DNA from: a virus
Strand: one strand, 5' to 3'
IMG/VR virus record: IMGVR_UViG_3300030107_001381
Coordinates: 1 to 26,260 of that record
DNA: 26,260 nt
Part shown: piece by piece, positions 3,169 through 26,260 of the stretch
How the letters are laid out: the number at the start of each line of letters is the position of its first letter
Position numbering within the stretch: the stretch's first letter is position 1
Program-made: the position numbers and the translations under genes
The notes under the pieces: model-generated
What the model was told of the DNA's origin: nothing
Seen by the model: the letters and a program-made list of their open reading frames with translations, nothing else
Database searches by the model: none

Positions 3169-3193
3169 AGTGTCTAGAGATACAAAACATAAT

Positions 3194-8817: not shown

Positions 8818-10914
8818 ATGCCAGCTACCCCATCAGAATTAACCTCTCTGGATTTCTTTGAGATAAAAGAGTCCATTAAGTCGTATTTGCGTACTCGTGA
8901 TGAGTTTACTGATTATGACTTTGAGGGATCAGCTGCTTCATACTTAATAGACATACTTGCCTATAACACATACTACACTTCATTTAATGCTAACATGAGC
9001 ATGAATGAAGCGTTTCTTGAGTCAGCAACGGTAAGGGATAATATTGTAAGAATAGCAAAGCAGCTTGGTTATACCCCTCGTTCCATTAAAGCATCTAAAG
9101 CGTGCGTCAGAATGGCAGTTCAGACTGCACTGATTCCAGGTGGACAATCATACCCAGACACAGTAACTATCAAAAAGGGTGATGTCTACATTTCTAGTAA
9201 CACAAATGACACCTACACTTATTGTTTACTAGATGATGTAACTGTATCAGTTGATCAAAACAATGGTATAGCAAGTTTTAGTAAGGTTATTATTCATCAG
9301 GGTAATTTACTTAGATTTACATACACAGTTGATGATACTAAAAAGCAGGAGTTTGTAATACCTGCTGAATCAGTTGATACTGAACTTTTAACTGTTTCTG
9401 TTAAACCTTCAGAACAGTCTGTAGAACTTGATGAGTATTCATTGTCTACAAACGTGGTAGATTTGGCATCTACATCAAGAAACTACTTCCTAGAGGAGAC
9501 TGAAGACCTTAGATACAAGGTAATCTTCGGTGATGGGGTTCTAGGACGTAAATTGATTGATAATGAGTTCATTATATTAGAGTATGTAAGTACTGCAGGA
9601 ACCGAAGCAAACGGATGTACTAAGTTTTCCTTTATTGGACAAGCAGTAGACTCCCAAGGTCGTGCTATACCTCCTTCTAGCATGTCTCTAGCGACCATAG
9701 ACAGCAGTCAAGATGGTACTGACAGGGAATCAGCGTTGGCAGTCAAATTCCGTGCTCCTAGGCAGTTCTCAACGCAGTCTAGGGCAGTTACAGAAGACGA
9801 TTATGCTTATATTGTTTCTTCTCTATATCCCCAAGCAGCAGCAGTTACCGCATATGGAGGTGAGAAGTTAAATCCACCTATTTACGGTAAGGTTTACATT
9901 GCTGTGAGATCAAAATCGGGTGTTAACCTTAATACTACTACAAAAACTCGTATTAAGAACCAATTACTGAAGTATTCGATGGCATCTATCGAACCAGTAA
10001 TCGTTGACCCAAGAATATTCTATATTACACCTAAAGTTTATCCTTTCTATAACGGTAACGAAACTTCTAGATCGTCAAATGAACTAGGTACTGAAATTCT
10101 CAAGTCTATTGACCAGTATAACGGTCAGAATCGTGAAAATAGGTTTAACAATAGATTAGAGAAATCTAAATTTAACTCAATGGTTGATGCTTCAGACGAT
10201 GCTATCTCTGGAACCAGTACTCAACTTACTATGGGTCAAAATTTAGACCAATTTACATTTGGAAACGTATTTACCCAATGTTTAGACTTTGGTAACCCAA
10301 TTACGAACCCAAGTGACTTAGGTGGAAACGATGCAGGAGACTCCACATGCCCTCCTAAGTATAGTGCAGTTAAATCTGGTAAGTTCTACGCTACAGGGTA
10401 CACAGAGAACCTTGCAGACCTCTTAGCGGACGGATCTACTGCAGGTGGTGGTACTGCTGCGTCAGATGCGTCAGATGCCATCTATGCCTCTGGAAATAGA
10501 ACCACTGAGGTGCTAGTACCAGTTAATATTCGTGATGATGGAAAAGGAAATCTTCTATTAGTTGCTACTCGTAACGAAAAAGAAGTAGTTCTTAATAACA
10601 GCATAGGAACCGTTGATTATCAAAACGGTATAGTTTGTGTAGGACCTTTAGATGTTGCTGATACATCTGATGGTACTCCAAGAATCCCTGTTGTTGTATA
10701 CCCAGACTCAGATTCTATTACAATTCCACCAGGAGTTGATCCTACAATCTTTAACCCTGAAGTTTACCCAATTGATTTCATTACTAACCCAACAACTGTT
10801 CCAACATTTGATCCTAATAACTTCGGTGGATGGAACTACGGTGGAACCCCAATAAATATCATTAATTACCCAATCGATGCTTTCGAGTATCCAGAAGTCG
10901 AATCCTGTTTCTAA
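8818..10914 (+). CDS. 6: Baseplate wedge protein gp6 (baseplate J-like)
   Basis: The 698-residue product is a little longer than T4 gp6 (660). The N-terminus has the family signature: DFFEIKESIKSYLRTRDEF, then YDFEGSAASYLIDILAYNTY at 35-54, followed by EAFLESATVRDNIVRIAKQL and GYTPRS. Gp6 dimers form the inner ring of wedges around the hub and hold gp25 and gp53. Residues about 230-350 contain the J-like core, including RYKVIFGDGVLGRKL and AVTEDDYAYIVSSLYPQAAAV. The region 492-560 is a Gly/Ala/Asp-rich insert with DASDASDAIYASG-like character, and 620-698 is a Pro/Asn/Tyr-rich tail ending in Cys-Phe. Those extensions differ from T4 and may contact the giant protein encoded five bases downstream. 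Confidence 0.92.
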   Translation: MPATPSELTSLDFFEIKESIKSYLRTRDEFTDYDFEGSAASYLIDILAYNTYYTSFNANMSMNEAFLESATVRDNIVRIAKQLGYTPRSIKASKACVRMAVQTALIPGGQSYPDTVTIKKGDVYISSNTNDTYTYCLLDDVTVSVDQNNGIASFSKVIIHQGNLLRFTYTVDDTKKQEFVIPAESVDTELLTVSVKPSEQSVELDEYSLSTNVVDLASTSRNYFLEETEDLRYKVIFGDGVLGRKLIDNEFIILEYVSTAGTEANGCTKFSFIGQAVDSQGRAIPPSSMSLATIDSSQDGTDRESALAVKFRAPRQFSTQSRAVTEDDYAYIVSSLYPQAAAVTAYGGEKLNPPIYGKVYIAVRSKSGVNLNTTTKTRIKNQLLKYSMASIEPVIVDPRIFYITPKVYPFYNGNETSRSSNELGTEILKSIDQYNGQNRENRFNNRLEKSKFNSMVDASDDAISGTSTQLTMGQNLDQFTFGNVFTQCLDFGNPITNPSDLGGNDAGDSTCPPKYSAVKSGKFYATGYTENLADLLADGSTAGGGTAASDASDAIYASGNRTTEVLVPVNIRDDGKGNLLLVATRNEKEVVLNNSIGTVDYQNGIVCVGPLDVADTSDGTPRIPVVVYPDSDSITIPPGVDPTIFNPEVYPIDFITNPTTVPTFDPNNFGGWNYGGTPINIINYPIDAFEYPEVESCF

Positions 10915-10918
10915 TTAG

Positions 10919-13900
10919 ATGCAAACTCTAAGTTCTGTTAATATATCTGATAGAGTCGAAGGTCAGTTACCTGACTTTATCAAACACGAAGACGAGCAAT
11001 TTGTCTCGTTTCTTTTTGAGTACTATAAATCTCAAGAAAAGACAGGTCGTCCGTACGACTTATTAAACAATATATTAGATTACCTTGACATTGACCAATA
11101 TGATCAAAAAGTGCTCGCATCTAGCACTACTTTGATTAAGGACGTTGATGCTACAAATAGTTTAATAGAAGTTGAGTCAATTGATGGATTCATGGATCGT
11201 GATGGATCTGTGATGATTGATAATGAGGTAATTTACTACCAAAATACAGTTCGTGGTCCTGATGCTATTCTAACTCCAGGATTATCACTAGAAGAATTTA
11301 ATAAGAAGAGACAAGAACTAGAAAGTCCATTTTTAGACTTTGATGGGGTCACTACAACCTTCCCACTCAAGTTCTTAGGTACTCCAGTCTCACCTGTCTC
11401 AGCAGAGCACTTAGCAGTCATAGTCTACAATCAGAGTATGATCCCTAATGTGGATTATACGATTAGTGGTACTAATATTACCTTTACTACTGCTCCTAGA
11501 ACTAGAATCGGTACTGATGTAGTTGGTTCTACTAGAATCCTTTATTACATTGGTTTTGCTGATTCTGTAATTAAAGAATTGGTCTTCCCTGCAGTTGATG
11601 GTCTAGCAGGTCAAGATTCTATGACCATTAGTTATGATAATCTTCCATATTCTCCAATTTCAGAGATTGGTCTTATCATTAACCGTAATGGTGTTCTATT
11701 AAGACCATATATTGACTATGTGTTGACTGATAACAACACTAGAATCAAATATTTTGTAAATATCACTCCACAGGATGTTTTCCATATTCGTTCTATCGAA
11801 TATGTGTCACCTTCTGTTGGATCAGGTGCTAAAGCGGTTACTCGTGTTGGTCTAAATGGTCAAATCGAAGAAATTCAGGTCAAAGATGGTGGTAAGAGAT
11901 ATGAACTAAACTTTGCACCTAAAGTTACCGTTACATCAGTCGGTACAGGTGAAGGTGCTGCTGCAAGAACCCTAGTTGCAGGTATTAAGGACATTCAGTT
12001 GATCAACGGTGGTCAAGGTTACAGTTCTTATAACCCTCCTAAGGTTAAAATCACTGAACCTAGTGATATGACCAATGGTTCAGGTGCAAGAGCAGAAATC
12101 AGTGTTGATGATACAACTGGACAAGTAGATAGTATAAGAGTTACAAATTCTGGTTCAGGCTACGATTTTATACCCGCTATTTCCTTTGTTAACCCAAGTG
12201 GTGCTATAATAAGTGACCCAACTATTGACTCGGAGGGACGTTTAAATGCTGGATCTATTAGTATTACTGATGGTGGTATCGGCTATAGTAATTCTCCTGT
12301 CATCTACATCGACAAAGCCCCTACTGATGGCGTTGACGCTGTTGCTGAGTGTACTGTTTCTCCAGATGGCGAAATTGTTGCTGTTACTATTACAAACAGA
12401 GGAAGGGGTTACCTCACTCCACCAAGAGCTAGAGTTGTACAACCAATTGGTGCACAGGTTCTTGATGTAACTGTAGCAAATGGTAGTGTTACTAACATTA
12501 ATCTATTAACTGGTGGTACTGGTTATACTGATGCACCTTCTGTATACATTGTAGATGATCGTAAAGGATCACTAGGAGAAGCAATTGGTGGTACTGGTGC
12601 TGAAGCAGCAGCAACCGTCTTTAATGGTGTTATCACAGATATTAATATTATAAACTTTGGTACAGGTTACTCTACAACTGAACCTCCCACAGTTTATATC
12701 GCAGAACCCTTGGCAGCACAGGCATCTTGCGACGTTGGATTTGGAGAAGTAACTGGATTTAGTATTTTATCTACTGGTAAGGAATATCAACCATCTTCAT
12801 TACAAGGATGTGCTAGAGGTGTATCTGAAGTTGTTGATTTTGATAAATTTGGTAATCAGATCTTTGCTAAAGAGGAACAACTAAGGCAAAGTGACCATCC
12901 AACTGGTGCAGTCGTACATAACCTTGATGCACAGATTATTACACAGGTATTTGACAAGTTCCGTCGTCAATATATGCCTACAATCAATATTGACTACAGT
13001 CAAGTCAATCCGATTCAGGTAATTAAGACAATTAAGGACTTCTACCTTTCTAAAGGTACGAAAACTGCTGCTCAATACCTCTTTAAGATTCTATTTGGTG
13101 AAGAAGTTGATATATTCTATCCTAGAGATGAATTAATCAAACCTTCAGATGCTTCTTGGGTTGTTGACACCATTTTGCGTGCAAAATTGATTTCTGGTGA
13201 TCCTGCAGATTTAGGAAATGCTCAATTAGTCCAATATGCAGATCCTGTTGACCAAAACATCAAAGATGCTAACGTTTTGATCGAAAACGTCATTTCTATT
13301 ATTGAGGGAACTGACGTAATCTATGAATTAGCAATATCTGAAGAAACACTCACTGGTGAGTTTAAGATTCCTTATAAAACCAACCTTGTAGAACCATTAT
13401 CAACTACAGGTAACATAATTACGGTTGATAGTACAATTGGATGGCCAGAAAAGAACGGTACTATCATTATTGATGATGAAGAGACTGTTCAGTACAAAGA
13501 AAAGTCACTAAACCAGTTTATTGAGTGTACTAGGTCTCAAAATGGTGTTGTAGAGGATTGGGATCCTGGTACAATCATTCATTCTGATATTTTTGTCTAT
13601 GTTAACCGTGGAACAGCAAATGAAGTCAAGTTAAGAGTACTTGGTATCGCTGAAGCGGGTACTACTGAATTAGAAGACAGTGGATCTTACTATTTGCCTG
13701 GAGATAAGTTAAATGTTGCTGCTCTAGGTTCATCTGGTGAAGATGAGAGACTCCAATCATGGTTATACAACGTTAAGAAGTTAATTAGCGTTACTTCCAT
13801 CAATCCTGGTGGTCTTAACAACCAAACTGCTACTGTTGTCTGCTCTAACCCACATGGTTTGCTTGTAGAAGACCAAGTTACCATTTATGGTGCAAACCCT

Positions 13901-16900
13901 GCTGTTTATAATGGTACATTTGAGGTTACTTCTCGTTTAGATGACTTTACCTTCTCATATAGTATTCCTACTCCAATGGACATCGTTCCACAGGGTAATA
14001 TACTTCTTTCTGTTGACCTCAACCGAGGAAAGTCAACTGAAAGCACTATTGATGAAGTAATTTCGTTATTTACTTCTAATATACAGAACGCATTCTTTAA
14101 TACTAACTACGTTTACGTTGCAGCGTCTGGATTACCCAACTATAAGGTAGGTCCTTTCCAAGGGTCTGCAATGATTCCAGGAAACCAAAGAAAACTACTT
14201 CGTTTCCCTAGAATTGTCGAAACTATCTCTACAAGAACAGAAGTTGGTGCAAACTATCCAATTGGTGCTTGGGTTAACGGTGTTTCTGCTTGGTCTTACA
14301 AATCTAGTGAATTTGTTACCTTTGGTCCTTTAACTTCTGTTAATATCACTAATGAAGGTGTAGATTATGATGCAGGATCAAGACCTACCTTAGAAATCAC
14401 TGGTGGTGGCGGTACAGGTGCTGCAGCGACTGTAACTGTTAATGGATCATTAGATTCAGTCGAAGTTACTGCAGAAGGTACTGGATATACTGAACAACCA
14501 CTAATTTCTATCGTTGGAGGTGGTGGTAGCGGTGCAACTGCTCAAGCGGTTGTTACTAATGGTAGAGTAACAAGAATTCTTGTAGAAAACCCAGGAATTG
14601 GATATACTTCACAACCAACTATATCAATTACTGGTGGAAAAGGTTCTGGAGCACTTGCAACTGCTTCTGTAAGAGGTCCAATCAGTGCAGTTACATTATC
14701 TAATTCAGGTGTCGGATATACCTCTACACCATCCATAAAACTTAATTCTGGTGAAGGAGCACTAGCACAACCTATCGTTATTAACGGTAGAATCGTATCT
14801 ATCGCTATTATTAACTCTGGTGATGCTTATACTTCAGCACCTAAGGTTTATGTCAATGGTGATGGATTTGGTGCTCAAGCAACTGCTGTTATTGGTACTT
14901 TAGGAGAAGATAAGGGTAAAGTTATCTCAGTATCCATTACTAACAAGGGTGTTGGATATACACAAGGAATGACAACTGTTAGATTAGAAGCAGTTGGTCA
15001 ATTAGCAACATTTACTGCAGATGTCTTCCAGTGGAACAAAAATATAGAATATCAGTTAGATCCTGATCCTGCTAACCCTACAGCAACTAATACTGACGGA
15101 TCTCTTAAGAGAAAGTATGATATAGCAAGAGGATACGTCTTTACTGGTTTTAATAACCAATATGGTGGTGAATATGCTCACGTTTCCGATCCTAAGGAAT
15201 TACGTTATGTAATTGGTGATAACGTCTTCTTAAATCCAGAAACTAACCGTTTCCAAGAAGTTCCTTCTAACATTGGTCACTCTCCTATCATTGGATGGGC
15301 ATTTGATGGTAATCCCATCTATGGTCCTTATGGATACATTGATCCTACTGATCAGAACAGTGGTATTAGAAGAATGCGTTCTTCTTACACTTTAAAGACA
15401 GAAATTGTAGAAGATGTGGATACAAACCCAAATCCTGCTCGTATTGATGGTCCTGCACTGGAAACATACCCACCAGGATACTTTGTAAACGATTATAAGT
15501 ACACATTCCAACAAGGTGACCTAGATGCTTATAATGGACGTTTCTGTAAGACTCCAGACTACCCTGCAGGTACATATGCATACTTTATAACCATTGATGA
15601 GTCAGATGCAGGTTTACCAGTCTTCCCATACATCATTGGTCCTAGTTTTAACTCAGTTGTTGATACATGGAACTTAACACAGACTGCAACACAAGAAAAC
15701 ATTCCTCAAGACGTTGCAAGATTCAGAGATCCATATGTAAACGTTGATATTGATATTGAGCGTCAACCAAACCAACAGGCAGACTCATTTGTGACTGAAA
15801 GAGAAGGTGATCTTCTTATTTTCGAAATTGAGGACTTAGATGGTGATGCAATCATATCTCCTGCTGAAATTGCAACAGAACAAGCAATAACAGAAGAAGC
15901 AGCACTACAGATCTATGATTACTTCCCTAGAGTATCAGCAGAGTCAAGAGTTGATATTGAGGTTGATACAACCACTAAATTCGAGTCTGCACAGATTGAT
16001 GGATTCGTTGTTGAGAACGCAGGTGTTTCTTATCAGGTTGATGACACTTTATTCTTCGATAACACAGGTACAGACGGGTTCGGAGCTTCTGCCATTATCG
16101 AGTCGGTCCAGGGCCGAGACATTGCTGCATATACAAAGGAAGTCGTTAATGACATCCCATACGGTAAAATAACCACTGCTACAGACCATGAACTTATCGC
16201 ACAAGACGAAATTATTGTTAACAGTCGAGTTATTACTGATAATACTAACAAGCGTTACTATATGTCAGTTGTTACTGGTATTGAGACTATTACAGTAACA
16301 CAATCAGGTATTGGTTACAATACACAGATTCCACCGACTTATGAGATCATTACCTCTTCTGGACAAGACGTTAACTTTAGTATTGTTCTAGATGAGACAA
16401 CTGGTAAGGTTGGAAGCGTTAATATCGTTAATAGTGGTTTTGGATACGATGTAGACGCTCCTCCACAGATTAGAGTCTCTCATCCACAACAATACAAGAA
16501 AACTTACTATTGGTTATCTGAATATTACGAAGATACCGATAAAATCCAAATATTCGATTCTCAGATAACCACAGATCGTTATATCTACATTTGTGGTGAA
16601 TTAACTCAAGTTAATGGTGATTCTTCTGCATTCCTTGCTAAATTTACTGATTTGGGTGTTTTAGTTTGGGATAGAACACTTTTACCTTCTGCATCCAATA
16701 AAGTTGCTCGTTGGAAGTCAATGTACCTTGATGAGACTTCTGAAGAGAATGAATTGATCTATATTATCGGTGAAACCGAATCTCAGTCAACTGCGACTTA
16801 TAATCCCGATATTTTAGTTGCTAAGTACGAATCTGGGTTTAATAATGCAAATGCACCTGAAGGTATTGTCAGATGGCAAAAAGAGATCGCAGGTGTCTCT

Positions 16901-19900
16901 GGATCTGCTAGAAGAGACTATGCAGGTGATATTCACCTAGATGATGAGCAAAGAGTCTATATTTGCGGTTGGACTGATACTAACTCTCCAGATCCTAACG
17001 ATATCTGGGTTATGCAACTTAATAACCTAGGTGACGTTGTAGAGAAGCGTAAATTTGCTTCTGATGACGAAGGTGAGACAATGAACCAACTTAGGTTCAT
17101 TGGAAACAATAAAATGCTTTGGACTGGTGTTGATGCTGACAATAATGACTTATTATTCGGTGAAATGGAGTACGATGGTGCAAACATCGAACTTAACTAT
17201 ACTAAGAGACTTGCTATAGCAGGTGGTAGTGTACAGAGACCACAGTTCATCCTTGATGAGTGGAACGATCTATTCTTCATATGTGATATGTGGAATGGAA
17301 CTAAGAATTATGGTATAGCATTCTTTAAGATACCTATTGATCAACTTTCTACCAATCCTGCAGCAGGTCCAACATACGAGTTTTCTAAGATTATTGCTCC
17401 TAGTGGCAATTTCGAAGCAGTTAAACATGCAGGTATCAATTTAGATGTCTTTGGTAATGTAAGTGTCGTTGCTGATCTGAAATATTGGGATAATGATCGT
17501 CAGATCGTTGCAATGAACTTTAAGTATGATGGAACTCTTCTTAAGAGTACTAATATCGAAGATACTGATGATATTGGTATGTCAGCATGGACTCACCAAG
17601 TAGATAACTCTGGTGATGTTATTATTCCATGTAATAAGCAACTTCCAGTACAGACATATGTTGCTCGTTTTGAGAATGAGAATGATTTAGATGAAGATAG
17701 CACAAAACAAGCACTTGTAACTACAAGTTTCTCAAATGCTGCATATGCTATTCATAATACACAAGAATTTAAGTTTGGTGCAGGTGCTCTGAAGTTCTCT
17801 GGTGGTCCTGCTTATATGAAGGCAGCAGGAGCTGGAATAACAACTAATTGGACTGTATCAGCATGGAGTTACATGGAACCATCTCATGCTGCGAACAATC
17901 CGAAGGTTGAGATGTTCACTATTGATGATGCAACTGGTAATAGTCTTATTGTTACTGTAGATGGTAACGTTTCTAGTCCTAACCTAGGTAAGATTGAGAT
18001 GACCATTGCACCTCAGGGTGGTGGTGGATCTACTACTGCATCAGTTGGTAGTACATATTGGACTGCGATGGGTTCATCTTCATTCCATCATTGGGGAGTA
18101 GTTAAGGAGGAACCAACCTTAGGTTCATATAAGTATTCTGTTTACTTTGATGGTGCACAGGTTTGTACTGCAACTGTAGTAACAAATATTGGTCTTAATG
18201 ATGTATATGTTGGTGCTAATAAGACAACACCTGCTACAGGTAACTCCTTATTAGGTACTATTGATGATTTTGTTATTGATCCTAATTCAGTATGGAGTGG
18301 AACATTTACTCTTCCTACTGAACGTTATAGAATTACTTCTACTGACTCTAGAGTTAATATTATTAAGTTTGATCGTCAGCATGATAAGAGAGGTGACTAT
18401 AGTGCATTCTCTGAAACTACTCATACTAAAGCACTTAAGTTTACAGAAACATCAGCGATTAACATTAATAGTTTAAGTAATCCTGTTGTAACAATATGGA
18501 ATCAAGGTTCATCTGGTTTACAGATTCTTGACTACTCTGATGTTATATCACAACTTGCACCAGGTAGTTACAACTTTACAAGTGCTAATCATACATTTGC
18601 ATCTAAGACTTCTACAATACCTTCACCACTTGGTAGAAAGGTTAAGGTAACTGCAGTTCCTATGGCGAAGTTCTACATCAGAGATGCAGGATATCAGAAG
18701 ATTGACTTAGTTAAGGAATTTACATTTAACCAAGACATTAAATTTACTAAAGGAACAATTCTACAGCAGACAAATGAGAATGGTATTGTTCAGGGATTTG
18801 GTACTATCGTTGAGGTTCCAACTGGTACAATAGACACACCTGGTCTTGGTACCAAGTATAAGGTTGGTAAGATTTACGGTACATTTAATAATGATACTAC
18901 TGATCTATATCAAAATGATATTGGTGAAGAGAATACTATTGATGATGTTGTATTCGAACAAGCAAGACCTCAAGATCAGTGGGTAACAGGTAAAGCATAT
19001 ACAGTTGATACACAGGTTTACAACGCAGGTAAGATATACAAAGCAACTAATAATTCTACATCTGGTGTTACTGCACCTACTCATGAGATTGGTATAGTAA
19101 CCGATGGTGGTGTTCTATGGCAGTTTATTAGTGTTTCTGGTCCTATAGAAGTTGATCTATTAGAACATGCTTGGCCAAAACCAACTATACCTTTATGGAG
19201 TCCTAGTAAGTCATTCTCATTAAATGATGAAGTCTACTGGGGAAGACAGAGATATCAGTGTACTACTGCAGGTGTTTCTAGTACTGTTCCACCTACACAT
19301 ACTTCTGGTACTGCAACTGATGGTACTGTAGTTTGGACATGGCAGCAACAGTATGATGCATTATCACAATATGCTAGGTTCAGACCTTATGATCCTGGTG
19401 ATTATAGAGTTAAGATTCTTGAGGTATATCCTGGATCTGATTTCATAGTTGGTGATGTAATTTCGCTTGGTGGTAGTGTAACCGCAGGGCCAAAAGAAGA
19501 TAACCCTAAAATTGGTCAAATTAATGGCGTAACTACAGTTAAGAAAATAGAATTAGTAGTTACTCTTAATAAGGATATTATTCGCACAGGAGAGACTAGG
19601 ACTGATCTTATATACTGTTCTGCTCTTAGTGCACATAGATTTACTGCAGGAGATATCCTCTTTGTTGAGGGATTCCAGGGCACACAGTTTGATGGATCAT
19701 TCTTTGTAGAAGAAGTCTTCTCATCAAGAGACTTTACTTATAGAATGAGGGCAACTGCTGTATCTGATCCTACATTTGACAACAATTCTATTGCTAGAGT
19801 TAAGATATCATCTAAGCACCCAACTCTAATGTTGGTAAGAAACCACTCTTATATCTTTGATATGAGTGATGCTTCTAACCAAGACTACTACTTATCATTC

Positions 19901-22900
19901 TCTCAAGATAACCAGTTTAAACTAGAATACTCCTTTAACGTTATCGAACGTGAAGGAATTCCTGGTCAATCTTCTGCTACCGAAGTTCCTATAGTTAAGT
20001 TTACAGTTGGTGGTGAAGTAACTAACATCACATACTACTTTGATCCAAGTAGAACATTACATTCTAACTCTCCAGTTGGTTCTGAATCCTTTATTGATGT
20101 TATTAAGACTCCTTATGATGGAACATTTAACATTGCTGAAATTATTAGTGATACTGAGTTCAGATTCCCATTAGAGCATGAACCAGAATTTAATACTGCA
20201 ATGATTGGATTGGATGATCAGGATAGACCTAATTCATACTATTCCACAACTTCTAAGAAAGCGATTGGACCTATTAACACAATTAAGTTGATCTCTCCAG
20301 GTGGATTCTATAAGAAACTACCAATTATTTCAGAGGTTGCATCTGATCGTAAGATTGAGAAGATAAGAATTGCTAACGGTGGTACTGAATATGCACCTGG
20401 CGTATATACACAGGTTCCTATTATAGGTGATGGTGAAGGTGGTCTAGCTAACATCACAGTTACTATTGATGCTGAGACTGATTCAGGAACAATCAGTGAT
20501 GTTGACCTTATTGATCCTGGTTCTGGATACACAACTGGTGTTATCGATGTAGATGGTATACCAGGAATTCTTGGACCTACACTTTCTGGTTCTGGTGCAG
20601 AATTAACTGTTGTTATACCTGCTGAAGGTACAGGTGCTTCTATATTCTTAACTGGTACACAGATTGGTAAGATTAAAACTCTTAAGAACAATGAATTTGG
20701 TTATGGTTACTCTCATGACTACACTCTACGTCCTGAGATCGCATTCCCAGTTAACTTACAACTCTTTAACACCTCAATACTATCACAGATCAAGATAACC
20801 AATCCAGGTGCTGGCTATACATCTGCTCCTGTTGTTGTAATCGACGGTGGTGGTGGAACTGGTGCTAATGCTGAGGCAATAGTTAAGAACAATAGACTGT
20901 CTGAGATCATCGTTAAGGATCCAGGTGCAGGATATAGTTCAGAACCAGTTGTTACTCTAAAATCAGAATTTACATACGTTGTTAACTTAGACCTTAACTA
21001 TCTACAGTTTAACTTCCCACATGGTATTACAACTGGTGCTGCTGTACAGTTCCGTGCAGAAGATATCGGTACTACAGTTGGTGAACTACCAAAACCAAGT
21101 TCAGTTGGTTTGACTTCATTGTCATCTACACAGACTTACTATGCTATTGCGGGTGATGCTAACTCACTAGAATCTGATCAACTTAGATTTGCGTTAACAC
21201 CTGCTGATGCTGATTCTGGTAACTTTATTACCTTCTTAACACAAGGTGATGGAAGACAGGTTCTTCTTACTGAGGTATTCGGTGGTCAAGCAACTGCTGT
21301 TGTAGAAACCTCAAGATTCTTAGAATCTGAAGAAGTATTCCAAGGTGAATCTTATGAATTAGCAAATGCCTTCGGTACTGTTTCTATTAATGACGGTTGG
21401 CAGATTGGTCCTAAGATTCTTAAGATTGTTAATCCAAAAGGTGAGTTTGTTGTAGGTGGTAAGGTACAAGGTGTTATATCTCGTGCATCTGGTATTATTG
21501 ACAATGTTAACATTGCAAGAGGTATTCTTAATATTGATGCTCTTACAAGAACATCTGGTAGATTTATTGATGACGTTGGTAAACCTTCTGAAATCGTACA
21601 AAAGATTCAGGACTCTTACTTCTATCAGAACTTCTCATATGTTATTAAGTCACAAATTCCAATTAACCGTTGGAAGAAGCAGGTATTAGAGAATAATCAC
21701 CCTGCAGGATTTAATATGTTTGGTCAGTTAGAACTGACTGGTGGTAAGGACGTTTCTGGACGTAAGATTGGTACTGAGTTTACAAAACAGGTTAATATTA
21801 ATGAATATACCAATGTTAACCAAATTACATCATTTGGTGCTGCTCAACCAATATATTCTACATTTAACAACTCTGAAGTTCTATTCAGAAAGAAAAGACT
21901 AACAAACTCTGAGGAAATCTTAACATCTATCGTTAAGAAGTTAGATAACATCTCAGATCAGTTTGATGGTTCTACTAAAGGATTCCCACTTAGTGTAGAA
22001 GGTGAACAGGTAATAATTAAAGAAAATCAGATGTTGGTCACCTTAAACGGTGTTATCCAGTCACCTGGTACTGCATATCAAATTGTTGGTAATCAGATCG
22101 TATTTGCTGAACCACCAAGACCAGATTCTAAGGTTGTTTACAGAAACGTAGAAATACAGATATTACAGATTACTAGACTTAATCTAAACACTATTGGTGG
22201 TATTTTCCCACAAATCGGTGATTTCGTTTCTGGATTCACTTCTAATGCTAATTCTAGAGTTGTTGCTACTGGTGCAACAAGTATTGACGTTATTGACATC
22301 TCATCTGGTCCTTATCAACTCAATGAGAGAATTGACGTTTCTAGAACTGGATTTAGTGCTTTAATTGGTTCTATTGATGTTTTAAGTCAAGAAACTATCT
22401 TTGAGTTCGAAGAAGTCGTTACTAAGGTTGCTTTAAGTGGAGAAACCGCTAAAGTCGAAGAAACTAACTTAGACCTTGATGGTAATACTGATTCCTTCTT
22501 AGTTCTTTCTAAGACTTCTGGTACTGCCGAATATGAGACAGGTGCTTATGCTATTTTCTTAAATGACTTTATATACTCCTCAGCATCAAATATTGCTGCT
22601 AAGGTTGTTGGAATTTCTCCATATAGAGATCCTATCAGTTCTATCAACCTTGCAACTGCAGTAGCCTTCGAAGAGGGAGATCAACTAACTGGTGGGATCA
22701 GTGGTGCTCTAGCGGAAGTTGTTAGAGTAGATGCTGAAGCACAACCACCTGTATTGTACTTTGTAGCTAAATCTGTTGCTAATTTTGTTGATGGAGAAAC
22801 AATTACTGCTGGATCGTTAAATGCTACTGTTTCAGGTGATATCAAGTTAGGTGACGTTGTAGATACTCTTATCATTAACAAAGGTTCTACATTCTTCGGA

Positions 22901-25900
22901 TTAGTATTTGAGAGACTTATATCTCTATCTAACCAGAATATTATTCTTGATAATATCTCTCAGACAACTATTACTCCTACTACATTAACTGACGCTGCAG
23001 ATCGTATTAACGCTGACTTCCTTGATTATGAGTCAGTACGTTCTACTGAGATCGAATATAACAACTTATCTGGTGGTACAATCACTAATAATGATAAGAT
23101 TCGTTCTATCAATGTTACTTACGGTAATGCTGAAACTGACGCTATTAACAGATATAAAGATGCTGCTAGAAGCATTAGAAATAATAGACAAGAAATTATC
23201 GATTTTGCAACCTCTCAAATTGCAATCGACTATCCAGATTTCTACTACACTGGAGAAACAGAAACTACTCAGTATGGTAGATTTAAAGATGGATATCGTT
23301 TAATACAAAAAAATAGCGAATGGATTATTGCTAAGGCATATCAGGACATGATTGTTCAGTATCCTAGTTCTACAATTCCTAGTGCTACTAAATGTAAGAG
23401 AGATATGAGATATCTCATCGATGCTCTCTCAAGAGACACAGGATGGGGTGGTACAGTTTATACTCGTAAGTTCTTACAGAAGTACTTCCCTGATGGTACA
23501 TCATTAGCATATCTTCTTGGTGAAGAAACTGAAACTGTTTGGGGATTCCAGAGATGTGTAGATTATATGCAGGATGCTATTCAGAACACTTTAAGTGGAT
23601 CTGAGACTATTGATGCTGTCGTTTATAACAAATACAATGAGCAATCTAGTGGACCTAATAACAATACTGGTATTACTGCTGACCCTAATCCTGGCGGTAA
23701 TTATGGATCAGCAGGTACCAATACTACTAACAACGGTGTTGACAATTGTGCTGACGTTCAGGCTGCTCTTACAACTCTTTGGACCAATGTTAAGGAAGTC
23801 CTCGAAGCAGCATCACTAAGTGATCTTATTGACCTTACTCTACCTGATGGAGGTTATACTCCTAAAGAGATCAAGTGTAATAGAGATACAGGATACTTTA
23901 TTGATGCTATTGCAGATGACCTAGAAGGTGATGGTAATTATGCAATCGTATCCTTTACTAAGAAGTTCTTTGACTCAAATGGAATTCCAATTAACAATGG
24001 TCTTCCAGAAACAGAAGAAGCGATAACTGCATTTAATAAAGCAAAAGAATTATGTAAGAGAGCAATGAGAAACTTGCTCTACAGTCAGTCTCTTACTGAA
24101 ACTGGTTATAACCTTAATGATCCTACAACATACTCTGCTCCATACTTAGAGAACTCTGGAGTTGCACATTACTATGATCCAGATTATGCTTCAGGATCTA
24201 ACCAGAATGAAACAAACTGTGCAAACGTAGCATCTTCTATTGATACTTTAGCAAATCTTGCTACTACTGCATTTAGTGGTGATCAGTTTACTCCTTCAGG
24301 TGCAACTTATGATGCTGCAACTGGTGACATGGTTCTTACCATTGGATCACATACTTTAACAACATCTGACACTGTAAGAATTGATCCTTATGGATTAACA
24401 TTTACATGTTTGATGGATCAGAATACTGCTCAGAAGACATACCCACGTCCTACTGACCCATGGTATGAAAAGCAGATCGCTATTACTGCTACAGGTCCAA
24501 CAACAATTACAATTAACGTTGGTACAACTCCTCTCGTTAACCATGATGTTACTGCTGCAAATTACAATATAACTTCTGGTGATTTACAATTAACTATCGG
24601 TGCACACACTTTAGAAGTTGGCACAAGTATTAAAATTGCTACTGAATCATTAAGATTCCAGTGTGCTTACAACGGTGGTGGTGAAGGATTATATCCTCGT
24701 GCTAATGGTGCTAATACATCCAGTGGTGCTGACTATGCATATGACACTGCACTTCCTATAATTTCTAAAACAGGAACCACAATCACAGTTAATGTGAACG
24801 GTGGACAGGGTGCTATCTCCAATACTGATGCTCATACATTTGTATCTGCAACTGCAGGTGCTGTAATTTCTGGTGGTAACTACGCACATACATTTGTATC
24901 TGCTATTGCTAATTCTGTTAAGGCAGGTGGTAACCTTGATAATATCAATGCACTCGCAGTTATCTCAGATGGTACTTACCAAGAGAATGAGAACATTCGT
25001 GTTTACAAATTTGCTTATAAGAATAGAGGTGGTACTGGATTCTTCGTTCCTGGTGACACAATAACAGGATCAACATCTGGTGCATCATTCCCACTTAAGG
25101 GTGCAAACTCTGGTTTAAGATGGTTATATGCTCAAACTGTTAGTGGTATATTTGATCTTAAAGAATACATTACCAATAGTAAGATTACCAATAATCCTGG
25201 TGGATCTAATGTTACCATAACTCCTACAGGAGCAACATATGATCCTGATACTGGACAGTTAACTCTTACTCTCAATAACCATGGATATTCTGTAGGTAAT
25301 AAGGTATCGTTTGCTCTTAATGCATTAACCTTTAGTTGTACAATGGATGGTAATGCAACCAACCATACATATCCTCGTGCTGATGATCCAGTTGGACAAG
25401 GACAACAACTTCAGATTTTAAAAACCACAACTAATACATTCACTGTACAGGTTGGTGCTTCTCCTAAGACATACTTACAAGTAACTGGTGCAGATTACGA
25501 TCCTATTACAGGTTCTGTAGTTCTTAATGTCGGTGATCACAATCTTAATATCAATGACAGTGTTAGGTTAAAGCCAAATTCATTAATCTTTACTTGTGAT
25601 CAAGATGGTGGAGCAACAGAAAAATCTTATCCTAGAGTTGCAGGTTCAGGTAACCCTTCAGGTGGACAAGACCCTGCATACAACACTAAGATTAATATAG
25701 ATGCTGTTGGTATACAAGGAACATTCACAAGTACTGATGCAGTTTATACACCTGCGACTGGTACTCTTACACTTAGCGTTGTCAACCATGGAATGCAAAC
25801 AGGTAATAGAATCAAGATTGCTGATAATTCTATAACATTTTCTTGCACTAAAGATGGTAATGCTACCAATCATACCTATCCAAGAACAACTGACCCAGTT

Positions 25901-26260
25901 AGTAACCAGTGGTTAGAAGTTGTTGTAATAGACAATAATAACATTGGTGTTCAGGTTGGTGCTTCTCCTGCAGATGAGCAATATGTACACACATATGTAA
26001 CTTCTGGTGGTTCTAATATTACTAGACAGGATGGAACTATTACTGTTAACGTATTATCCAGTCCTCCTTCTTCTAATACTTCTGCACATCAATTCCAAAG
26101 AGCATTAGCAGACGCATTGGAGATTGGTGGTGGGTATCCACATACATTCCAGAGTGCTACTACTAATGGTACTACCATATACCCTGCTTCAGCTAGACTT
26201 ACTACCATAGAAAAACGTAGTGGAACTAAGTCCCTGAAACTTGATTCAGGAGCATACCTC
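10919..26260 (+). CDS. Giant baseplate/tail-fibre-like protein, 3' end outside window (at least 5114 residues)
   Basis: ATG 10919 lies 4 bases after the gp6 stop, and the frame stays open to the last base. Residues 17-65 (PDFIKHEDEQFVSFLFEYYK...DYLDIDQYD) and 678-748 (FDKFRRQYMPTINIDY, KDFYLSKGTKTAAQYLFK, EVDIFYPRDELIKPSDASW) together make a signature known in large T4-like baseplate proteins of marine phages; its halves are about 610 residues apart here. Then, roughly: GxGY repeats 316-629, 1138-1369, 1787-1855, 3119-3349; YHYH-type domain 1420-1577; propeller-like strands 1876-2253; LamG/ConA-like domain 2266-2461; two carbohydrate-binding-like modules 2687-2808; an IFD...DPSR sandwich 2962-3050; KIQDSYFYQNFSY 3562-3574; CxRD modules near 4159 and 4320; fivefold repeat 4457-5035. 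It holds the place of T4 gene 7, but T4 gp7 is 1032 residues. I infer a baseplate core fused to adhesive arms. No stop was found by reading the frame. Confidence 0.88.
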   Translation, partial: MQTLSSVNISDRVEGQLPDFIKHEDEQFVSFLFEYYKSQEKTGRPYDLLNNILDYLDIDQYDQKVLASSTTLIKDVDATNSLIEVESIDGFMDRDGSVMIDNEVIYYQNTVRGPDAILTPGLSLEEFNKKRQELESPFLDFDGVTTTFPLKFLGTPVSPVSAEHLAVIVYNQSMIPNVDYTISGTNITFTTAPRTRIGTDVVGSTRILYYIGFADSVIKELVFPAVDGLAGQDSMTISYDNLPYSPISEIGLIINRNGVLLRPYIDYVLTDNNTRIKYFVNITPQDVFHIRSIEYVSPSVGSGAKAVTRVGLNGQIEEIQVKDGGKRYELNFAPKVTVTSVGTGEGAAARTLVAGIKDIQLINGGQGYSSYNPPKVKITEPSDMTNGSGARAEISVDDTTGQVDSIRVTNSGSGYDFIPAISFVNPSGAIISDPTIDSEGRLNAGSISITDGGIGYSNSPVIYIDKAPTDGVDAVAECTVSPDGEIVAVTITNRGRGYLTPPRARVVQPIGAQVLDVTVANGSVTNINLLTGGTGYTDAPSVYIVDDRKGSLGEAIGGTGAEAAATVFNGVITDINIINFGTGYSTTEPPTVYIAEPLAAQASCDVGFGEVTGFSILSTGKEYQPSSLQGCARGVSEVVDFDKFGNQIFAKEEQLRQSDHPTGAVVHNLDAQIITQVFDKFRRQYMPTINIDYSQVNPIQVIKTIKDFYLSKGTKTAAQYLFKILFGEEVDIFYPRDELIKPSDASWVVDTILRAKLISGDPADLGNAQLVQYADPVDQNIKDANVLIENVISIIEGTDVIYELAISEETLTGEFKIPYKTNLVEPLSTTGNIITVDSTIGWPEKNGTIIIDDEETVQYKEKSLNQFIECTRSQNGVVEDWDPGTIIHSDIFVYVNRGTANEVKLRVLGIAEAGTTELEDSGSYYLPGDKLNVAALGSSGEDERLQSWLYNVKKLISVTSINPGGLNNQTATVVCSNPHGLLVEDQVTIYGANPAVYNGTFEVTSRLDDFTFSYSIPTPMDIVPQGNILLSVDLNRGKSTESTIDEVISLFTSNIQNAFFNTNYVYVAASGLPNYKVGPFQGSAMIPGNQRKLLRFPRIVETISTRTEVGANYPIGAWVNGVSAWSYKSSEFVTFGPLTSVNITNEGVDYDAGSRPTLEITGGGGTGAAATVTVNGSLDSVEVTAEGTGYTEQPLISIVGGGGSGATAQAVVTNGRVTRILVENPGIGYTSQPTISITGGKGSGALATASVRGPISAVTLSNSGVGYTSTPSIKLNSGEGALAQPIVINGRIVSIAIINSGDAYTSAPKVYVNGDGFGAQATAVIGTLGEDKGKVISVSITNKGVGYTQGMTTVRLEAVGQLATFTADVFQWNKNIEYQLDPDPANPTATNTDGSLKRKYDIARGYVFTGFNNQYGGEYAHVSDPKELRYVIGDNVFLNPETNRFQEVPSNIGHSPIIGWAFDGNPIYGPYGYIDPTDQNSGIRRMRSSYTLKTEIVEDVDTNPNPARIDGPALETYPPGYFVNDYKYTFQQGDLDAYNGRFCKTPDYPAGTYAYFITIDESDAGLPVFPYIIGPSFNSVVDTWNLTQTATQENIPQDVARFRDPYVNVDIDIERQPNQQADSFVTEREGDLLIFEIEDLDGDAIISPAEIATEQAITEEAALQIYDYFPRVSAESRVDIEVDTTTKFESAQIDGFVVENAGVSYQVDDTLFFDNTGTDGFGASAIIESVQGRDIAAYTKEVVNDIPYGKITTATDHELIAQDEIIVNSRVITDNTNKRYYMSVVTGIETITVTQSGIGYNTQIPPTYEIITSSGQDVNFSIVLDETTGKVGSVNIVNSGFGYDVDAPPQIRVSHPQQYKKTYYWLSEYYEDTDKIQIFDSQITTDRYIYICGELTQVNGDSSAFLAKFTDLGVLVWDRTLLPSASNKVARWKSMYLDETSEENELIYIIGETESQSTATYNPDILVAKYESGFNNANAPEGIVRWQKEIAGVSGSARRDYAGDIHLDDEQRVYICGWTDTNSPDPNDIWVMQLNNLGDVVEKRKFASDDEGETMNQLRFIGNNKMLWTGVDADNNDLLFGEMEYDGANIELNYTKRLAIAGGSVQRPQFILDEWNDLFFICDMWNGTKNYGIAFFKIPIDQLSTNPAAGPTYEFSKIIAPSGNFEAVKHAGINLDVFGNVSVVADLKYWDNDRQIVAMNFKYDGTLLKSTNIEDTDDIGMSAWTHQVDNSGDVIIPCNKQLPVQTYVARFENENDLDEDSTKQALVTTSFSNAAYAIHNTQEFKFGAGALKFSGGPAYMKAAGAGITTNWTVSAWSYMEPSHAANNPKVEMFTIDDATGNSLIVTVDGNVSSPNLGKIEMTIAPQGGGGSTTASVGSTYWTAMGSSSFHHWGVVKEEPTLGSYKYSVYFDGAQVCTATVVTNIGLNDVYVGANKTTPATGNSLLGTIDDFVIDPNSVWSGTFTLPTERYRITSTDSRVNIIKFDRQHDKRGDYSAFSETTHTKALKFTETSAININSLSNPVVTIWNQGSSGLQILDYSDVISQLAPGSYNFTSANHTFASKTSTIPSPLGRKVKVTAVPMAKFYIRDAGYQKIDLVKEFTFNQDIKFTKGTILQQTNENGIVQGFGTIVEVPTGTIDTPGLGTKYKVGKIYGTFNNDTTDLYQNDIGEENTIDDVVFEQARPQDQWVTGKAYTVDTQVYNAGKIYKATNNSTSGVTAPTHEIGIVTDGGVLWQFISVSGPIEVDLLEHAWPKPTIPLWSPSKSFSLNDEVYWGRQRYQCTTAGVSSTVPPTHTSGTATDGTVVWTWQQQYDALSQYARFRPYDPGDYRVKILEVYPGSDFIVGDVISLGGSVTAGPKEDNPKIGQINGVTTVKKIELVVTLNKDIIRTGETRTDLIYCSALSAHRFTAGDILFVEGFQGTQFDGSFFVEEVFSSRDFTYRMRATAVSDPTFDNNSIARVKISSKHPTLMLVRNHSYIFDMSDASNQDYYLSFSQDNQFKLEYSFNVIEREGIPGQSSATEVPIVKFTVGGEVTNITYYFDPSRTLHSNSPVGSESFIDVIKTPYDGTFNIAEIISDTEFRFPLEHEPEFNTAMIGLDDQDRPNSYYSTTSKKAIGPINTIKLISPGGFYKKLPIISEVASDRKIEKIRIANGGTEYAPGVYTQVPIIGDGEGGLANITVTIDAETDSGTISDVDLIDPGSGYTTGVIDVDGIPGILGPTLSGSGAELTVVIPAEGTGASIFLTGTQIGKIKTLKNNEFGYGYSHDYTLRPEIAFPVNLQLFNTSILSQIKITNPGAGYTSAPVVVIDGGGGTGANAEAIVKNNRLSEIIVKDPGAGYSSEPVVTLKSEFTYVVNLDLNYLQFNFPHGITTGAAVQFRAEDIGTTVGELPKPSSVGLTSLSSTQTYYAIAGDANSLESDQLRFALTPADADSGNFITFLTQGDGRQVLLTEVFGGQATAVVETSRFLESEEVFQGESYELANAFGTVSINDGWQIGPKILKIVNPKGEFVVGGKVQGVISRASGIIDNVNIARGILNIDALTRTSGRFIDDVGKPSEIVQKIQDSYFYQNFSYVIKSQIPINRWKKQVLENNHPAGFNMFGQLELTGGKDVSGRKIGTEFTKQVNINEYTNVNQITSFGAAQPIYSTFNNSEVLFRKKRLTNSEEILTSIVKKLDNISDQFDGSTKGFPLSVEGEQVIIKENQMLVTLNGVIQSPGTAYQIVGNQIVFAEPPRPDSKVVYRNVEIQILQITRLNLNTIGGIFPQIGDFVSGFTSNANSRVVATGATSIDVIDISSGPYQLNERIDVSRTGFSALIGSIDVLSQETIFEFEEVVTKVALSGETAKVEETNLDLDGNTDSFLVLSKTSGTAEYETGAYAIFLNDFIYSSASNIAAKVVGISPYRDPISSINLATAVAFEEGDQLTGGISGALAEVVRVDAEAQPPVLYFVAKSVANFVDGETITAGSLNATVSGDIKLGDVVDTLIINKGSTFFGLVFERLISLSNQNIILDNISQTTITPTTLTDAADRINADFLDYESVRSTEIEYNNLSGGTITNNDKIRSINVTYGNAETDAINRYKDAARSIRNNRQEIIDFATSQIAIDYPDFYYTGETETTQYGRFKDGYRLIQKNSEWIIAKAYQDMIVQYPSSTIPSATKCKRDMRYLIDALSRDTGWGGTVYTRKFLQKYFPDGTSLAYLLGEETETVWGFQRCVDYMQDAIQNTLSGSETIDAVVYNKYNEQSSGPNNNTGITADPNPGGNYGSAGTNTTNNGVDNCADVQAALTTLWTNVKEVLEAASLSDLIDLTLPDGGYTPKEIKCNRDTGYFIDAIADDLEGDGNYAIVSFTKKFFDSNGIPINNGLPETEEAITAFNKAKELCKRAMRNLLYSQSLTETGYNLNDPTTYSAPYLENSGVAHYYDPDYASGSNQNETNCANVASSIDTLANLATTAFSGDQFTPSGATYDAATGDMVLTIGSHTLTTSDTVRIDPYGLTFTCLMDQNTAQKTYPRPTDPWYEKQIAITATGPTTITINVGTTPLVNHDVTAANYNITSGDLQLTIGAHTLEVGTSIKIATESLRFQCAYNGGGEGLYPRANGANTSSGADYAYDTALPIISKTGTTITVNVNGGQGAISNTDAHTFVSATAGAVISGGNYAHTFVSAIANSVKAGGNLDNINALAVISDGTYQENENIRVYKFAYKNRGGTGFFVPGDTITGSTSGASFPLKGANSGLRWLYAQTVSGIFDLKEYITNSKITNNPGGSNVTITPTGATYDPDTGQLTLTLNNHGYSVGNKVSFALNALTFSCTMDGNATNHTYPRADDPVGQGQQLQILKTTTNTFTVQVGASPKTYLQVTGADYDPITGSVVLNVGDHNLNINDSVRLKPNSLIFTCDQDGGATEKSYPRVAGSGNPSGGQDPAYNTKINIDAVGIQGTFTSTDAVYTPATGTLTLSVVNHGMQTGNRIKIADNSITFSCTKDGNATNHTYPRTTDPVSNQWLEVVVIDNNNIGVQVGASPADEQYVHTYVTSGGSNITRQDGTITVNVLSSPPSSNTSAHQFQRALADALEIGGGYPHTFQSATTNGTTIYPASARLTTIEKRSGTKSLKLDSGAYL
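11864..12805 (+). repeat. GxGY protein repeats, block 1 (about 8 units)
   Basis: Eight units of 33-45 residues follow the plan 'strand - GGxGY - P - strand - GxGA - strand', for example IKDIQLINGGQGYSSYNPPK, VTNINLLTGGTGYTDAPSVY and ITDINIINFGTGYSTTEPPT. They lie between the two halves of the baseplate-type signature of the giant protein. Such repeats probably make a beta-solenoid or a string of small beta domains. At the DNA level they are too diverged to be a simple tandem repeat. Confidence 0.75.
14330..15025 (+). repeat. GxGY protein repeats, block 2 (6 units)
   Basis: Six units are seen, such as VTRILVENPGIGYTSQPTIS, ISAVTLSNSGVGYTSTPSIK and IVSIAIINSGDAYTSAPKVY, the last with Ala in place of the second Gly. 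Between units run Gly-rich turns of the GGGGTGAAATV type. They are the most regular copies in the window and immediately precede the YHYH-type domain. Confidence 0.8.
15176..15649 (+). other. YHYH-type domain within the giant gene
   Basis: Residues about 1420-1577 of the giant protein carry GHSPIIGWAFDGNPIYGPYG, then DLDAYNGRFCKTPDYPAGTY and AYFITIDE. This matches the YHYH family, found in secreted bacterial and eukaryotic proteins of unknown function and in some marine phage structural proteins. The conserved His, Asp-Gly-Pro-Tyr and Cys residues are all present. Its role is unknown, with carbohydrate or metal binding possible. Confidence 0.65.
16277..16483 (+). repeat. GxGY protein repeats, block 3 (2 units)
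   Basis: Two units are seen: IETITVTQSGIGYNTQIPPT and VGSVNIVNSGFGYDVDAPPQ. They lie between an acidic linker segment and the propeller-like segment and seem to act as a spacer. Confidence 0.65.
16544..17677 (+). other. Propeller-like repeat segment within the giant gene
   Basis: Residues about 1876-2253 contain repeated blades of the SBBP-like plan, for example RYIYICGELTQVNGDSSAFL then AKF, ELIYIIGETES then ILVAKYES, RVYICGWTDT then IWVMQLN, and further weaker copies. I count about six. Each blade gives a strand ending in Ile/Cys-Gly, a loop and a partner strand. A beta-propeller exposed at the tail tip could bind a receptor; that is inference. Confidence 0.55.
17714..18301 (+). other. LamG/ConA-like domain within the giant gene
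   Basis: Residues about 2266-2461 have the laminin-G-like jelly-roll landmarks: GALKFSGGPAYMKA, WTVSAWSYMEP, HHWGVVKEEP, YSVYFDGAQV and LLGTIDDFVI. This fold often binds sugars or proteins. A second copy seems to begin at the window end (SGTKSLKLDSGAYL). Confidence 0.7.
18977..19342 (+). repeat. Two carbohydrate-binding-like modules
   Basis: Copy 1 (18977-19135) reads QWVTGKAYTVDTQVYNAGKI then YKAT, TAPTH and GVLWQF; copy 2 (19193-19342) reads LWSPSKSFSLNDEVYWGRQR then YQCT, PPTHT and DGTVVWTW. Both follow the W-x-Y-V-Y-x-A-x-P-x-W plan of chitin-binding CBM5/12-type modules common in phage tail proteins. The identification is from motif spacing only. Confidence 0.6.
20273..20965 (+). repeat. 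GxGY protein repeats, block 4 (about 5-6 units)
   Basis: Units include IEKIRIANGGTEYAPG, ISDVDLIDPGSGYTTG, LSQIKITNPGAGYTSAPVVV and LSEIIVKDPGAGYSSEPVVT. The last two are the clearest; others are diverged, one lacking the second Gly. The block follows a sandwich domain and precedes the segment leading to KIQDSYFYQNFSY. Confidence 0.7.
23393..23920 (+). other. Paired CxRD helical modules within the giant gene
   Basis: CKRDMRYLIDALSRD (4159-4173) and CNRDTGYFIDAIADD (4320-4334) start two related helical modules of about 160 residues; the second also has ELCKRAMRNLL. Similar 'C.RD.GY.IDA' modules are, from memory, frequent in large cyanophage structural proteins. Their role is unknown. Confidence 0.5.
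24287..26023 (+). repeat. Fivefold repeat of about 85-95 residues
   Basis: Five copies begin with a Y-D/N-x-x-T/S-G strand and continue to a T/S-x-x-C-x-x-D/N-G-x-A/G-x-x-x-x-Y-P-R motif: starts near 24287, 24551, 25217, 25487 and 25736. Examples are GATYDAATGDMVLTIGSHTL and ATYDPDTGQLTLTLNNHGYS. Copies 3 and 5 share FSCTMDGNATNHTYPR and FSCTKDGNATNHTYPR. Copies 2 and 3 are separated by an unrelated insert. These are probably beta-sandwich units of a fibre. Confidence 0.75.

Follow-up and report, generated by a model that had tools for sequence, protein, structure and literature searches.

The window, a stretch of 26,260 bases that is an entire linear IMG/VR record, was found to carry on its plus strand (10919..26260) the first 5114 residues, of probably about 8576, of a giant gp7-type baseplate wedge protein. 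This assignment is based on the PHROG 701 family, on alignments with the proteins of phage P-RSM6 and of a second IMG/VR contig, G003, and on dN/dS. We consider it fairly probable, at roughly 60%, that the protein is a gp7 wedge protein with its own fibre-like arms, in phages that have been reported to be without long tail fibres.

The frame starts with an ATG located 4 bases past the gp6 stop at 10914 and runs through 5114 codons to the window end without a stop. The probability of such a run is about 10^-157 at the base composition of the window, the longest open stretch in the six frames of 200 first-order Markov simulations was 181 codons, and the other five frames over 10919..26260 contained 215 to 727 stops each. 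Alignment with the protein of P-RSM6, an isolate, revealed 92.3% identity across all 5114 residues with no internal stop. The contig G003 (IMGVR_UViG_3300006329_000001) holds a complete gene from ATG to stop, encoding 8576 residues with a calculated mass of 927.7 kDa, and is 96.6% identical to the window across the 5114 codons. The dN/dS ratio was below 1 in all 17 full 300-codon bins against both P-RSM6 (0.09-0.33) and G003 (0.07-0.68); for S-SZBM1, which is more distant, saturation of synonymous sites affected 5 of the 17 full bins, and values of 0.06-0.39 were obtained in the other 12. The final 14 codons were omitted from all three counts, and this short bin gave 1.13 against S-SZBM1. The giant frame is under purifying selection along its length, and a chance frame is excluded. 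The initial annotation had described an unbroken frame of at least 5114 codons directly after gp6 with a coherent protein signal throughout, and both statements hold: P-RSM6 and G003 are collinear with it, no stop lies inside, and every full bin against these two relatives shows purifying selection. For the extension to the stop proposed there, the related contig G003 offers a guide, its complete gene encoding 8576 residues.

A fusion of separate genes by the assembly, which the initial annotation had named among the possible refutations, or a collapse or expansion of repeats, is a very unlikely source of this gene. In favour of such an artefact, the record is a metagenome fragment that ends just past a repeat array; however, the window is collinear with an isolate genome (92%) and with a second contig (96.6%), P-RSM6 and G003 carry the same 20 repeat matches, and selection acts in every full bin, so that this reading is nearly refuted already. 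Since the window is the whole of a linear record, the gene is truncated at its 3' side by the contig end. From the alignments with the P-RSM6 (8573 aa) and G003 (8576 aa) proteins, the window most likely holds about 60% of such a protein, and the full-length product is probably near 8576 residues rather than 5114.

The genes of the window are arranged in the order PAAR, [SET], 25, 6 and the giant gene, and the order in T4 is 5.4 (PAAR), 6, 7 and 8. The PAAR-type protein of the tail tip (7402..7932, +; 176 aa) matched PHROG 281 with an E-value of 6.7e-23 and had no Pfam match at 0.01. It is followed by a gp25-like baseplate wedge or sheath initiator protein (8403..8816, +; Pfam GPW_gp25, 8.6e-15; PHROG 261) and by the 698-residue baseplate wedge protein gp6 (8818..10914, +; PHROG 219, 1.2e-205; Pfam Gp6-like_1st, 2.9e-17), the expected partner of gp7. 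In T4-type tails, gp7 binds two copies of gp6, and its N-terminal helix-turn-helix joins the (gp6)2-gp7 core bundle.

We found the gp7 core of the giant protein to be divided into two parts. The first part (aa 1-109; 10919..11245, +) was recognized from the alignment of N-termini and from the secondary structure of the models, in which the helices have low confidence, and would comprise a helix-turn-helix (approximately aa 9-42) and the first half of a small beta domain. The second part (aa 623-834; 12785..13420, +) was identified by profile matches to T4 gp7 and by Pfam Baseplate_wedge, and contains the motif DFYLSKGT at aa 707-714. A profile built from 15 N-termini and compared with the PDB sequences gave T4 gp7 (5hx2_A, residues 730-758) as the top match with an E-value of 8.8e-4, followed by a second T4-like gp7 (9f4a, E 2.6e-3); these matches rest on the motif DFYxxKGT. 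An hhalign comparison aligned T4 gp7 residues 678-827 over 141 columns (E 3.4e-6, probability 88%), and Pfam Baseplate_wedge was detected in 11 of the 15 aligned members, with a best value of 1.4e-7. The window itself scored 19.3 bits against this Pfam family, below the 27-bit cut-off, and its own N-terminus retrieved no gp7 from the PDB sequences, the sole match at E <= 1 being a protein other than gp7 (E 0.25). Depositors have labelled the gene at the giant position as gp7 in P-SSM2, P-HM2 and S-RIM8, and as "baseplate wedge initiator" in S-SZBM1, S-WAM1 and DSL-LC03. The giant gene is apparently the orthologue of T4 gp7, judging from sequence comparison; the T4 gp7 gene position given in the initial annotation is borne out by the order after gp6 together with the core homology.

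Structure prediction placed the core helices at the expected positions in both AlphaFold models, with pLDDT values below about 50-60. A Foldseek search of the PDB with the N-terminal model and with the core model gave zero matches at E <= 0.001. The best row for the core alone was the 1031-residue chain of the T4-like baseplate 9f4a, with an E-value of 4.9e-3 and a TM of 0.14. The best rows for the N-terminal model were immunoglobulin tandems (E 0.015), which were not used. In an AlphaFold model of an insert-free core of the S-PM2 type, the core helices were again of low confidence, and the VIA-align rows fell on two small barrels, many of them being F1-ATPase barrels; the comparison is therefore uninformative on gp7, and no gp7 chain appeared among the 50 rows listed for it.

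The two core parts are separated by a block of about 513 residues (aa 110-622; 11246..12784, +), as revealed by the alignment with relatives and by the spacing of the core motifs. The block lies within the small beta domain, which follows the first helices and precedes the DFYxxKGT helix, and was present in 6 and absent in 9 of the 15 aligned sequences. In IMG/VR, the core-motif spacing was 686-696 aa in all 80 loci that were the best hits of a window-type profile and 179 in all 80 best hits of an S-PM2-type profile; because each list holds the best 80 hits of its own query, intermediates may be missed. AlphaFold predicted the block with pLDDT values of mostly 80-91. Near its beginning, two beta domains (aa 124-296; 11288..11806, +) resembled, in VIA-align, the fibre-docking domains known from tailspikes and tail fibres of phages. 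In particular, aa 217-295 matched 7rfo_B (CBA120 TSP4) with a Z-score of 7.4 over 72 residues at 2.4 Å, 9k09_U of cyanophage A4 with a Z-score of 6.8 and the N-terminus of T7 gp17 (7boz) with a Z-score of 5.3, and aa 124-216 matched 9f4b_FA (Z 6.3) and 5iv5_AC (Z 4.9), the latter being taken as gp10 from its 602 residues. The best immunoglobulin rows for these domains had a Z-score of 4.1. As all of the scores are below 8, a range in which, by the tool's own statement, a match may mean merely a common arrangement, the predicted likeness to docking domains is suggestive. The block also contains a beta repeat in eight copies, each about 38-42 residues long, whose consensus is GGSGAEATATVTNGRITSINITNGGSGYTSAP (aa 301-623; 11819..12787, +), detected with a repeat HMM and modelled with pLDDT values of 80-91.

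Attachment of fibres or spikes near this position has been described in two other phages. In XM1, the tail spikes are reported to be bound to the gp7 counterpart gp17 via loop 80-106 and the C-terminus (PMC10457771), and the long fibre of A-1(L) is reported to be held by the sister wedge protein gp31, through an insertion spanning its residues 81-180 (PMC10966104). Both cases are precedents for fibre attachment at this spot.

Downstream of the core, we observed a long run of predicted beta modules. The GGxGY-type repeat gave 18 HMM matches in the window protein, including a second array of six matches (aa 1133-1349; 14315..14965, +) and a third group of three matches (aa 3171-3343; 20429..20947, +). 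Neighbouring baseplate genes, including gp8, carry such repeats as well. A YHYH domain (aa 1416-1560; 15164..15598, +) matched Pfam PF14240 with 98.2 bits against a cut-off of 25; a single-sequence search with the surrounding aa 1401-1833 gave no PDB match at 0.1. The region of aa 1870-2480 (16526..18358, +) contains a probable beta-propeller followed by a LamG/concanavalin-like domain (aa 2297-2453), according to Pfam searches across five orthologues: Laminin_G_3 was found in three of the five (best 1.4e-7) and SBBP propeller repeats in two (best 3.1e-5). The LamG match of the window itself scored 24.4 bits, under the cut-off of 27.6, and a profile of aa 1870-2480 gave no PDB match at 0.1. 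Self-BLAST returned zero internal pairs for the protein as a whole, and pairs were obtained when it was cut into 200-residue pieces.

The last feature in the window is a series of five matches to a 92-residue repeat (aa 4458-5028; 24290..26002, +), the first of those in the full protein, which was detected with a repeat HMM and lies in a region (aa 4260-5114) that matched PHROG 5342, "tail fiber protein", with an E-value of 2.5e-90. The repeat matches numbered 5 in the window, 20 each in P-RSM6 and G003, 6 in P-TIM40 and 1 in Syn33, with none in the giant proteins of S-WAM1 and S-SZBM1; the HMM was trained on these proteins, and at least two of the 20 matches are fragments (25 and 32 residues). 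In the complete relatives P-RSM6 and G003, the matches form three arrays. The G003 and S-SZBM1 proteins are collinear save at three places, where G003 has 625, 418 and 956 residues versus 77, 2 and 0, so that a net 1920 of the 1957 residues of length difference lie in three insertions. All 20 repeat matches fall within these three gaps, the last one overrunning by 8 residues. The 3496-residue "tail fiber protein" of S-RIM44 contained six matches in the 2217 residues examined, the gp7-position protein of the same phage (3328 aa) contained none, and the gp7 of P-SSM2 contained 10; the module thus occurs on both kinds of gene. The initial annotation had seen a baseplate base merged with adhesive modules usually found on fibre genes. 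The merger is upheld by the presence of the repeat on the S-RIM44 fibre gene; adhesion, through one LamG-like domain, one YHYH domain and the repeats, is what we infer.

Conservation along the protein was uneven. In S-WAM1, S-SZBM1, P-TIM40 and the P-RSM6 type, the N-terminal 4,450 residues have been conserved, except for aa 3800-4450 in S-WAM1, and the same phages share the C-terminal 1,290 residues (G003 aa 7290-8576), with identities of 38-90% in the 200-residue bins lying wholly inside. Between them lies a middle stretch (G003 aa 4455-7290) that is highly variable, both in how long it is and in what it contains. A conserved C-terminus after a variable stretch is unlike classical fibres, in which the far end varies most.

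To place the protein in its family, we searched 50,697 phage records with aa 1-2994 by tblastn. Matches were found in 494 records, named Synechococcus phage in 375 cases, Cyanophage in 61 and Prochlorococcus phage in 24, and 282 of the 494 hold at least 80% of the query in one place. An N-terminal profile identified at least 580 relatives among 600 candidate stretches of IMG/VR, 80 of which were kept. PHROG 701, "virion structural protein" (6136 positions), covers the window protein from aa 6 on with an E-value of 0. This PHROG is filed under head and packaging; its members lie in the baseplate cluster and have T4 gp7 homology, and the label hides a baseplate component.

The length of the gene following gp6 was surveyed in 22 annotated records, which were picked by hand from the matches and are a non-random sample, with lengths calculated from annotated coordinates. 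The lengths were 874 aa in Mosig, 896 in Melnitz-3, 1006 in phiN3, 1892 in metaG-MbCM1 (where the span is split into three ORFs), 3045 in S-CAM3, 3048 in S-PM2, 3328 in S-RIM44, 3494 in ACG-2014i, 4107 in DSL-LC03, 4307 in P-TIM68, 4454 in P-HM2, 5195 in P-SSM2, 6180 in S-SM1, 6376 in Syn33, 6395 in S-RIM8, 6483 in Syn19, 6603 in P-RSM4, 6619 in S-SZBM1, 6737 in S-WAM1, 6817 in ACG-2014d, 7351 in P-TIM40 and 8573 in P-RSM6. Ten of these 22 genes thus encode 6180-8573 residues, compared with 1032 in T4 gp7, and the exceptional size claimed in the initial annotation is ordinary within the family. The window protein adds one more sequence to a family known from marine cyanophages, which has already been deposited, named and reported in virions; among the open-licence PMC papers listed in literature searches, none had a title or abstract dealing with how large this protein is or how its domains are arranged. 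In metaG-MbCM1 (54178-73944), the giant span consists of three ORFs with short gaps, which may reflect a real split or frame errors.

The closest known proteins are those of P-RSM6 (YP_007675165.1, 8573 aa; 92% identity over 5114 residues) and G003 (8576 aa; 97% over 5114 residues), which occupy the same position and have the same repeat arrays; both are complete, whereas the window protein is cut at residue 5114. S-SZBM1_208 (6619 aa) is at the same position, with about 70% identity across aa 5-4454 and the conserved C-terminal region, but differs from these three in having no 92-residue repeat. PHROG 701 and the giant genes that follow gp6 in Kyanoviridae share full-length similarity and gene position with the window protein; this PHROG is filed under head and packaging, whereas the present evidence points to the baseplate. 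T4 gp7 (1032 aa) shares the gene order and homology over approximately its residues 678-827. In T4 gp7, the shared core follows about 650 residues for which no counterpart was detected in the window protein; in contrast, the core of the window protein is N-terminal, is split by an insert and is followed by thousands more residues. XM1 gp17 (242 aa), a minimal gp7 counterpart, can be likened to it by its published description of a helix-turn-helix, a loop and the rest of domain I, although the spikes of XM1 are separate proteins and the additions here are in the same chain (PMC10457771). Tail-fibre proteins of phages have modules in common with the window protein, namely PHROG 5342 and the 92-residue repeat of S-RIM44.

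Presence in the particle has been reported for two orthologues, S-SZBM1 and S-SM1, and refers to the virion as a whole. Mass spectrometry of virions is reported to have detected S-SZBM1_208 (724.20 kDa, 6619 aa) through 71 peptides that cover 13.5% of it (PMC9146016). T4-GC969 is listed among 41 proteins detected in S-SM1 virions (Sullivan et al. 2010, PMC3037559), and in the S-SM1 record, of which 42-84 kb were examined, the 6180-aa gene after gp6 (SSM1_102) is labelled GC 969; this link calls for caution, as the GC_969 label in metaG-MbCM1 sits on a different gene. According to PMC9146016, S-SZBM1 has no long tail fibres, and their lack has also been reported for S-WAM1, P-RSM6 and P-TIM40. 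These are the four named phages that came closest to the window in our sequence searches. Against a fused arm, the phages reported to be fibre-free keep a separate gene annotated as tail fibre connector. The S-SZBM1 virions are also reported to hold a YadA-domain protein and other structural proteins (PMC9146016), which could be the adhesins. In favour of such an arm, S-PM2d081 was described as mutating early in chemostats with the host (PMC9910659), and its length of 3048 aa equals that of the S-PM2 gene after gp6, so we take it to be that gene. The mutations in S-PM2d are reported to affect 18 ORFs, including gp8 and short fibres (PMC9910659), and the result is therefore not specific. On passaging of S-TIM4, the authors single out the YadA-domain protein (PMC6224464). 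The 18 mutated ORFs and this emphasis make other adhesins likely too. No baseplate structure from a marine T4-like cyanophage was found.

To account for these observations, we propose that an ordinary gp7 was enlarged about eightfold, to approximately 8,576 residues, by inserted and appended fibre-like modules. The wedge core would be restricted to aa 1-109 and aa 623-834, and all remaining residues would be additions: the block of about 513 residues, which may loop out of the core and open with two domains like those that dock fibres or spikes, and a C-terminal run of beta modules made up of repeats, YHYH, propeller, LamG-like domain and 92-residue repeat arrays. If the copy number is that of T4, six copies would be present per virion. 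Their added modules may form fibre-like arms on the baseplate rim that touch or bind the cyanobacterial surface and, with arm and wedge being one chain, contact would be passed directly to the wedge that triggers contraction. Some of what separate tail fibres do would thereby fall to the arms. A stronger version, which we hold tentatively and as possible rather than probable, is that wedge and receptor-binding fibre are one molecule, with six chains of about 0.93 MDa, each gp7 bearing a monomeric, non-trimeric arm that grows or shrinks as arrays of the 92-residue repeat are gained or lost at three fixed junctions. If this were true, host contact would pull directly on the wedge with no joint between fibre and baseplate, and the existence of T4-like phages reported to be without long tail fibres would be explained.

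The giant gp7 could alternatively be a pure scaffold, its modules thickening or bracing a larger rim and anchoring other proteins, with receptor binding located elsewhere, for example in the YadA-domain protein. The conserved N-terminal 4,450 and C-terminal 1,290 residues do resemble structure more than a fast-evolving tip, other adhesin candidates exist in the S-SZBM1 virion, and the GGxGY repeats are shared with neighbouring baseplate genes, including gp8. Such a role is harder to reconcile with the strong variation of G003 aa 4455-7290 in length and content, with the 92-residue repeat on a tail-fibre gene and with the reported absence of long tail fibres, and we consider it unlikely, if a serious rival. 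Less likely still is a polyprotein, whose cleavage would release a wedge protein as large as gp7 and, apart from it, fibre-like pieces. By itself, the first part would suffice for a protein of T4 gp7 size, the published coverage of S-SZBM1_208 is 13.5%, and the 20-kb span of metaG-MbCM1 is annotated as three ORFs; however, the three ORFs may stem from an error of frame or of metagenome assembly, and the S-SZBM1 protein was scored as a single protein with its 71 peptides. We know of no protease acting on T4 gp7, which we also count against cleavage.

The pattern of interest is that one gene position spans 874 to 8576 residues across the family, with an insertion into the wedge core that can be dated and three junctions at which repeat arrays were gained. 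In the cultured phages P-RSM6, S-WAM1 and S-SZBM1, it can be tested how T4-like cyanophages reported to be without long tail fibres recognize their hosts, and how a baseplate protein that bears load can tolerate having grown eightfold.

Several further genes were observed upstream of gp6. A 95-residue ORF with a SET domain (8082-8369, +; Pfam PF00856, 46.6 bits with a cut-off of 22.4) lies between the PAAR gene and gp25, and a 99-residue hypothetical protein is annotated at its place in P-RSM6. A 1254-residue protein (3634-7398, +; PHROG 22792) showed partial similarity to the baseplate wedge family PHROG 719. A 165-residue NlpC/P60-like protein (2671-3168, +) scored 24.2 bits in Pfam with a cut-off of 23; its ORF overlaps a MazE/AbrB-like ORF (3137-3358), and its counterpart in P-RSM6 is annotated as a minor tail protein.
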